Source: Lachnospiraceae bacterium (GTDB lineage Bacteria; Bacillota; Clostridia; Lachnospirales; Lachnospiraceae). Taken from it: 64,000 bases of DNA. Where the stretch lies: the NCBI GenBank assembly GCA_024690825.1, contig JAILOK010000132.1, forward strand, positions 1 to 64,000. The letters run 5' to 3'. Below the pieces are notes generated by a model. That model saw only the letters and a list, made by a program, of their open reading frames with translations. It had not been told where the DNA came from and did not search any database. The position numbers and the translations under genes are program-made. Positions 41,908-42,186 of this stretch are shown here, in pieces (position 1 is the stretch's first letter; each line of letters begins with the position of its first letter).

Positions 41908-41935
41908 TGAAAAAGACCGCAATACTGCGGCCTTT
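41908..41935 (-). terminator. Terminator downstream of tRNA-Pro
   Basis: Short GC-rich hairpin (CCGCA 41917-41921 with TGCGG 41926-41930, extended by flanking pairs). On the minus strand it is followed by TTTTTC. It lies 7 bases after the tRNA. Confidence 0.75.
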
Positions 41936-41941
41936 TCTGCA

Positions 41942-42015
41942 TCGGGGTGACAGGATTCGAACCTGCGGCCCCCTGCTCCCAAAGCAGGTGCTCTACCAAA
42001 CTGAGCCACACCCCG
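41942..42015 (-). tRNA. tRNA-Pro(TGG)
   Basis: Acceptor strands CGGGGTG/CACCCCG pair fully. Anticodon stem CCTGC/GCAGG with loop TTTGGGA gives TGG (Pro). This copy is complete. A 39-base copy of its 5' half lies 91 bases upstream (42108-42146). Confidence 0.95.
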
Positions 42016-42046
42016 TATTTTCTTTTTTCCCCTGCTTTTGTCGCCC

Positions 42047-42107
42047 TGCACCAGATGCGCCCAGCGCATCTAAGCGGTGCACAAAACATGCCATAGGGCA
42101 TGTTTTG
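42047..42107. repeat. Two adjacent palindromes inserted between tRNA-Pro and its partial copy
   Basis: Palindrome 1 (42047-42081): arms TGCACC and AGATGCGC pair with GCGCATCT and GGTGCA around a CCA loop, with a short AAGC bulge. Palindrome 2 (42082-42107): an 11-bp perfect stem CAAAACATGCC/GGCATGTTTTG with a 4-base loop. Neither has the U-tract expected of a terminator on the minus strand. Confidence 0.88.
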
Positions 42108-42146
42108 CCCAAAGCAGGTGCTCTAACAAACTGAGCCACACCCCGT
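42108..42146 (-). pseudogene. Partial duplicate of tRNA-Pro (5' half through the anticodon)
   Basis: The 39 bases match 41978-42016 except for one change (A here for C at 41997, plus strand). It contains the acceptor 5' strand, D arm and anticodon TGG, and ends before the variable region, so it cannot make a tRNA. It lies between the tRNA promoter and the palindromes. Confidence 0.9.
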
Positions 42147-42157
42147 AAAACCAATGT

Positions 42158-42186
42158 ATTATATACCCTGGTGCAGTCCTATTCAA
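42158..42186 (-). promoter_or_regulatory. Promoter of the tRNA-Pro locus
   Basis: Minus strand TTGAAT (42186-42181) and a perfect TATAAT (42163-42158), 17-base spacer, ending 11 bases before the partial tRNA copy. The -35 box lies in the last codons of yfcE. A transcript would contain the half tRNA, both hairpins and then the full tRNA-Pro. Confidence 0.75.

Follow-up and report, generated by a model that had tools for sequence, protein, structure and literature searches.

Small gene-less hairpin elements are the systems closest to the locus described here. Those of mitochondria are the double-hairpin elements, or DHEs (Paquin et al. 2000, as cited in PMC5910586), and PMC5910586 also places tRNAs at the ends of palindromes in cryptophyte mitochondria. 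Like the DHEs and the sponge RHEs (PMC2800124), the element that we describe measures tens of nucleotides, carries no gene, is dispersed, keeps its stems paired and is suggested to be mobile. As in DHEs, two adjacent hairpins make up the whole element, and its dispersed copies differ between close relatives. Unlike DHEs and RHEs, it resides in a bacterial chromosome, with a consensus of its own, the likeness to the Allomyces DHEs being structural only, and its recurrent entry into tRNA loops goes with a partial duplicate of the tRNA next to the intact gene. With the REP and BIME sequences associated with RAYT transposases (PMC3733652), it shares a dispersal as extragenic palindromes, sometimes in opposite pairs (here in G021), and a presumed movement in trans. 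In contrast to REPs, most of its copies lack a GTAG or CGTC tag, Y1_Tnp genes do not track it, and it inserts into tRNA copies. Rickettsia palindromic elements (RPEs) are palindromic elements inserted into protein genes. The present palindromic element also inserts into genes, but these are tRNA copies, and it enters other palindromes as well. RPEs are mentioned in PMC3733652. In its workings, the element resembles the mitochondrial DHEs and, more loosely, the REPs. Among the literature matches listed, which are mostly open access, none describes a bacterial DHE, a hairpin element of tRNA loops, or this family.

The locus lies in the first 64,000 nt of contig JAILOK010000132.1 of a Lachnospiraceae bacterium (assembly GCA_024690825.1), a stretch hereafter called the window (table 1). 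The promoter, the 5' tRNA-Pro copy with one change, the two palindromes, and the intact tRNA pointed out in the earlier note are all present. Of the parts in table 1, the note mentions neither the AGCAGGGG remnant nor the terminator-like hairpin. The direct repeat spans positions 41978–42017 and 42108–42147 (40 nt, 39/40 identical, spacing 130) and comprises 38 nt of the tRNA (positions 1–38) and the 2 nt immediately upstream. The half-copy scores 35.5 when aligned locally with the intact tRNA-Pro, whereas shuffled sequences reach 10.5 at most. No such copy, direct or inverted, was found within 300 nt on either side of the window's other four complete tRNA genes (a fifth is cut by the window start). 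By eye, a TATAAT box is seen at the corresponding place in the close relatives G001 and G027. Folded as DNA, the two palindromes reach −26.3 kcal/mol (z −7.8), and hairpin 1 is the window's sole perfect hairpin with an arm of at least 11 and a loop of 3–8 nt. Base 42108 is common to the element and the tRNA fragment. AGCAGGGG begins 9 nt past the element, and the same 8 nt come after position 38 of the intact tRNA. As AGCAGGGG seems to resume the broken copy, this remnant suggests that the element interrupts the anticodon loop of a tRNA-Pro copy that is itself truncated.

Table 1. The tRNA-Pro(UGG) locus, read along the minus strand from 42186 to 41942 (promoter, tRNA-Pro(UGG) 1–38, double hairpin, 9 nt, AGCAGGGG, spacer, intact tRNA-Pro(UGG)), and the hairpin that follows it
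Feature	Position	Strand	Basis or remark
Sigma-70-like promoter, TTGAAT-17-TATAAT	42158..42186; boxes 42186-42181 / 42163-42158	minus	read from sequence
Broken tRNA-Pro(UGG) copy, positions 1–38, one change (G to T in D-loop)	42108..42145	minus	repeat search, alignment
63-nt double-hairpin element, in anticodon loop of broken copy (suggested)	42046..42108	minus	covariance model, 85.4 bits
Hairpin 1 of element: 11-bp stem, 4-nt loop	42082..42107	minus	alignment, folding
Hairpin 2 of element: outer stem (6 bp in this copy), one-sided bulge of 4 nt, inner stem (8 bp), 3-nt loop	42047..42081	minus	alignment, folding
AGCAGGGG, 3' side of anticodon stem, seeming resumption of broken copy	42029..42036	minus	read from sequence
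A-rich spacer before intact gene	42016..42028	minus	last two bases within 40-nt repeat
Intact tRNA-Pro(UGG)	41942..42015	minus	70.3 bits
Intrinsic-terminator-like hairpin after tRNA	41910..41937	minus	read from sequence

Both palindromes, at query positions 79–136 of a BLAST search against 61 genomes, recur at many places within the same genus. The edges of the element are sharp (GCAAAA...CG, 62–64 nt). When 30 copies (28 distinct) are aligned, 99.4% of the cells of the two-hairpin structure are paired, a count made on the same sequences from which the structure was drawn, against 25–47% for control structures slid along the alignment. Among the 28 distinct copies, 10 of 24 stem pairs have changed on both sides (62 cells), 5 cells have changed on one side, and 4 are unpaired. 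This covariation consists almost wholly of Watson–Crick swaps. The near absence of G-U intermediates suggests, as far as the alignment goes, a constraint or a correction at the DNA level; by analogy, correction by template switching (PMC8794818) would yield compensatory changes without such intermediates.

With a covariance model at E 1e-3, at least 523 matches, some of them weak, were obtained in 39 of the 48 genomes of the genus. The highest copy number listed for a genome is 42, and the source genome holds six copies at E below 1e-3. A family-wide covariance search found matches in 9 of 299 genomes, two of which belong to this genus while the other seven match weakly (best E 1e-6). Strong matches are limited to this genus. 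A pattern scan of named genomes returned 34 stretches. One belongs to Thiotrichales and the other 33 to metagenome assemblies of Lachnospiraceae; the titles of 21 of the 34 name a ruminant stomach compartment. A related double hairpin at L104 1501–1557 (source genome C93:13478–13534) lies in a spacer of what we take to be an rpmJ-rpsM-like ribosomal-protein region. At L079, L204, and L207 of G021, elements are paired in opposite orientation about 8 nt apart, like REP dimers.

Four of the six copies of the source genome are linked to tRNA genes by eye: tRNA-Pro(UGG), tRNA-Pro(AGG), and two tRNA-Asn. At tRNA-Pro(AGG), a half-copy of 45 nt has the element behind its anticodon stem; at the two tRNA-Asn genes, the 5' end abuts the element. 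At the latter loci (L102 and L103), an arm of the element seems to provide the first bases of tRNA-Asn, and apparent rRNA operons end nearby. Of the 91 listed places, 90 were handled; the other, in G067, lacks a left flank in the stretch fetched. By eye, 13 of the 96 copies covered in four genomes lie, at 11 loci, in a partial tRNA or at a tRNA end. The Poisson probability of this is 6e-11 if tRNAs and 100 nt on each side are assumed to make up 0.63% of the genome. Positions within partial copies, assigned by eye, are the D-loop, the anticodon loop, and the variable region of tRNA-Pro; elsewhere, they are the D-loop and the variable loop of tRNA-Met and the T-arm of tRNA-Leu. Not all tRNA sites are loops, since the tRNA-Leu sites are in the T-arm or at the junction of T-stem and acceptor, and the tRNA-Asn copies abut the acceptor end.

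In six relatives (G002, G021, G006, G026, G024, and G004), the element occupies the D-loop of a tRNA-Pro 5' half with the full gene downstream, although in G026 this gene is cut by the contig end. The G021 locus has two tandem units, and this genome also carries the element in the D-loop of a tRNA-Met half. Only the portion after the element is retained in G001 and, for tRNA-Met, in G023. As at the source locus, the broken copy goes on past the element in G006, with AGAGCGCTACCTTAG. The half-copies of G002 and G021 match their own genome's tRNA variants, and by eye the leader is partly duplicated in both. At these 5'-type loci, an intact gene follows wherever the contig is long enough. The exception is L082 in G033, where tRNA-Pro(UGG) is split in the D-loop and no intact copy appears before the contig ends 142 nt on; no UGG match of G033 is among the matches listed. 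Empty sites exist in relatives. By eye, G017 (L154) has a plain gene behind a leader similar to that of G033 (L082), and G023 (L156) corresponds in the same way to G002 (L031).

A mirror arrangement, with the element within a partial 3' copy, is found 3' of tRNA genes: tRNA-Pro(AGG) in G004, G016, and G006; tRNA-Leu in G064, G067, and G024; and tRNA-Met in G024, where the intact gene is upstream, as well as in G003, G023, and G021, where none is called nearby. In G021, the contig ends 31 nt ahead of the element. The element lies past the terminator in the tRNA-Pro cases, in the G024 tRNA-Met case, and in G064. In G023 (L083) and G003 (L076), the stretch before the terminator keeps no more of tRNA-Met than its 3' end; other sequence stands in place of the 5' part, as though the gene had been split or replaced. 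After the terminator of tRNA-Pro(AGG), an inverted tRNA 3' half scores 19 in G016, 27 in G004, and 17 in G006 (shuffle maxima 11, 13, and 13). At L155, L166, and L147, which represent three species, these inverted halves turn round near the anticodon. An inverted 3' half of tRNA-Met is at best marginal: the two scores, 10 and 8, do not exceed the shuffle maximum, which is 10 in both cases. A direct 3' part after the element exceeds the shuffles only in G016 and, for tRNA-Met, in G023; for tRNA-Pro(AGG), G004 and G006 stay within them.

The interpretation in the earlier note is partly supported. Its gene-less mini-element is borne out, for the 63-nt double hairpin is dispersed and related copies occur next to partial tRNA copies at other tRNA genes. 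A fixed 39-base attachment site is not, as the 5' fragments range from 17 to 45 nt. The inspected copies away from tRNA genes show no evident tRNA fragment by eye.

We surveyed 63 tRNA-Pro loci of the genus: 69 genes less five belonging to other families and one with 7 nt upstream; the 63 loci have between 55 and 300 nt of upstream sequence. The survey covers the source locus and 40 of the 42 further places in the genus among the matches listed. Seven loci have a half and an element, one a half only, one an element only within 150 nt upstream, and the rest neither. Seven of the eight half-copies thus carry the element, which is found at one of the 55 loci without a half within 150 nt upstream and at two within 300 nt. 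The second of these is L013 (G024, UGG), where the element is 165 nt upstream in the other orientation. The association yields a Fisher p value of 1.1e-7 (5e-7 with 300 nt upstream); these values are approximate because the loci share descent and were listed by an element-containing query. L158 (G026), whose tRNA is cut by the contig end, is outside the table. Six tRNA-Pro(CGG) loci that exceed the shuffles (L168, L169, L173, L177, L180, and L181) were counted as having no half; by eye, their 16-nt D-arm match belongs to an adjacent tRNA-Lys. The co-occurrence of half and element, together with the absence of any complete tandem tRNA-Pro pair among the 63 loci, favors insertion and duplication as one process or as strictly interdependent, and we infer a single event or two tightly coupled ones. 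Selection presumably acts too, because the cell needs tRNA-Pro.

Targets are not confined to tRNA genes. The element also occupies loops formed by other palindromes and by further copies of itself, where CCAGT or CCCTTT precedes it. Of the 38 copies handled in G067, about 21 lie within the stem-loop of another repeat. Copies in this host repeat, AAGCCTTCCCCC..GTAAGG..GACGGATGAGGG, are nested at one point, apparently moving as a composite. For wider tests, 169 flank pairs were available, including loci fetched for their tRNA; 154 had 40 nt on both sides, and clustering left 66. For these 66 dissimilar copies, the 40-nt flanks form more pairs across the point of insertion than do flanks that were re-paired (7.7 vs. 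6.0 crossing pairs, z 4.3; MFE z −7.0). The excess loses significance (z 1.3) once the flanks are cut to their 20 nearest bases, and not every copy lies in a palindrome. A loop-apex test on 74 flank pairs with offsets up to 5 gave a mean of 3.01 vs. 2.62, with stems of at least 7 in 5.4% vs. 0.4%. We rejected a strict loop-apex rule, given this small excess and a wider fold test that is significant only with 40-nt flanks. T is favored before the element (34/66) and G after it (37/66).

No mobilizing enzyme was found among the Y1 and IS110 families searched in the 48 genomes of the genus. PF01797 (Y1_Tnp) occurs in 24 of them. A Y1_Tnp partner, of REP/RAYT or IS200-like type, was rejected because presence of the gene does not follow copy number: G024, G026, G033, and G019 have 19–27 copies and no Y1, and G014, G030, G062, G065, and G066 have 4–14 Y1 and zero copies, several of these genomes being incomplete. 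PF01548 (IS110) exceeds the cut-off in 13 of the 48, with no match in G067 and G004, which hold 36 and 42 copies. Among 132 distinct copies, the REP tags GTAG and CGTC occur within 12 nt of the left/right end in 5/2 and 2/15, respectively. Direct repeats of at least 5 at the ends, as a target-site duplication would leave, were observed in 3 of 66 copies, no excess over chance (mean 0.7, maximum 4); a MITE of a DDE transposon was rejected on this ground.

The reading that we consider best, with a probability of about 0.6, is that a gene-less, non-autonomous mobile double hairpin enters hairpin-forming DNA and that the local tRNA duplication is tied to the insertion or to its rescue. An element of about 63 nt with two hairpins would enter foldable DNA, be it the loops of tRNA genes, other palindromes, or its own loop. 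In the source genome, the site of entry would be the anticodon loop of a copy of tRNA-Pro(UGG), whose broken 5' part would remain upstream, behind the promoter. The intact copy directly downstream leaves the cell its tRNA-Pro. In the simplest coupling, the polymerase would switch template at the hairpin and copy the leader and the tRNA again, and selection would retain only those products that leave an intact tRNA. Simple copy-and-return switching does not, in one step, yield broken copies that continue past the element, as AGCAGGGG and, in G006, AGAGCGCTACCTTAG appear to do.

A duplication of unrelated cause could instead have come first, the element landing later in a redundant tRNA copy that then decayed from its 3' side. 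A half-copy without an element does exist: L171 in G033, upstream of a rather different tRNA-Pro(CGG), is a 42-nt 5' half of tRNA-Pro(CGG). That the hit copy once continued is shown by the remnant past the element, and the duplicated leaders of G002 and G021 resemble, by eye, a tandem duplication. We nevertheless regard this order of events as rather unlikely. Complete tandem pairs are missing from the survey, and few to tens of copies per 1.5–4 Mb genome should almost never strike a given 45-nt stretch, yet nearly all halves have been struck.

The preferred reading leaves room for a further step, namely that a transposase-free element spreads by replication template switching at hairpins into loops, and that the same switching duplicates tRNA ends, seeding half-genes later kept as regulators. 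Template-switch mutations (PMC8794818) would account both for stem changes that compensate each other exactly and for copies inverted at hairpins, among them the inverted 3' halves of tRNA-Pro(AGG). The duplicates at tRNA ends would then be direct 5' halves and inverted and direct 3' halves. Unlike a dispersed element, template switching is a local mutation process that does not by itself disperse a family. We hold this extended form to be unlikely.

Alternatively, the half-tRNA and the double hairpin may form a domesticated leader acting as a folding competitor, as a handle for RNase P or RNase III, or as a regulator of tRNA-Pro supply. Between G006 and G026, the block of half, element, and remainder differs at 1 of 100 positions, against 15 of 75 in the leader and spacer (Fisher 1.3e-5) and 5 of 48 in the promoter region, but this conservation comes from one species pair. 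By eye, G028 has a closely related-looking locus without the block, and the block is lost or eroded in G001 and G027. Insertion sites and isoacceptors vary between genomes, and the element is much changed at the matching 3' site of G004, G016, and G006. The idea that the half-tRNA competes for folding holds only in silico: in equilibrium folds, which exclude cotranscriptional folding, modification, and RNase P, the upstream half at the source locus is predicted to take 90% of the pairing of the acceptor 3' strand, leaving 9% to the tRNA's own 5' strand; the share of the half is 40% in G006 and 90% in G002. A functional leader as the general explanation seems improbable to us. Conservation of the block between G006 and G026, which far exceeds that of the sequence around it, makes co-option in some species possible.

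A remnant of an integrated phage, island, or integron-like element would fit with the partial copy that flanks the insert and with tRNA genes being classic sites of attachment. The earlier note's alternative of a last trace of an integrated element is not supported: the 63 nt are too short for a gene, neither an integrase nor anything larger was seen in them, target sites are not generally duplicated, and the point of crossover differs between copies (D-, anticodon, or variable loop). Copies are also dispersed at non-tRNA places, and no exact pattern match was found in viral_contigs. We consider such a remnant very improbable; the element also lacks the integrase gene and the fixed attachment core of a tRNA-targeting integrative element. 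An assembly artefact is hardly conceivable, even though this metagenome-assembled genome is in 138 contigs and many copies of relatives lie at contig ends, since the palindromes are not unique, the same architecture recurs in several other assembled genomes with each genome's own tRNA variants matched (G002 and G021), and G006 and G026 have the block in common.

If the preferred reading is true, the element would be a bacterial counterpart of the mitochondrial double-hairpin elements, preferring folded DNA and tRNA loops and leaving a signature of rescue at needed genes. It would then offer a tractable route to the movement of gene-less palindromes and to the origin of tRNA half-genes and of inverted copies of tRNAs.
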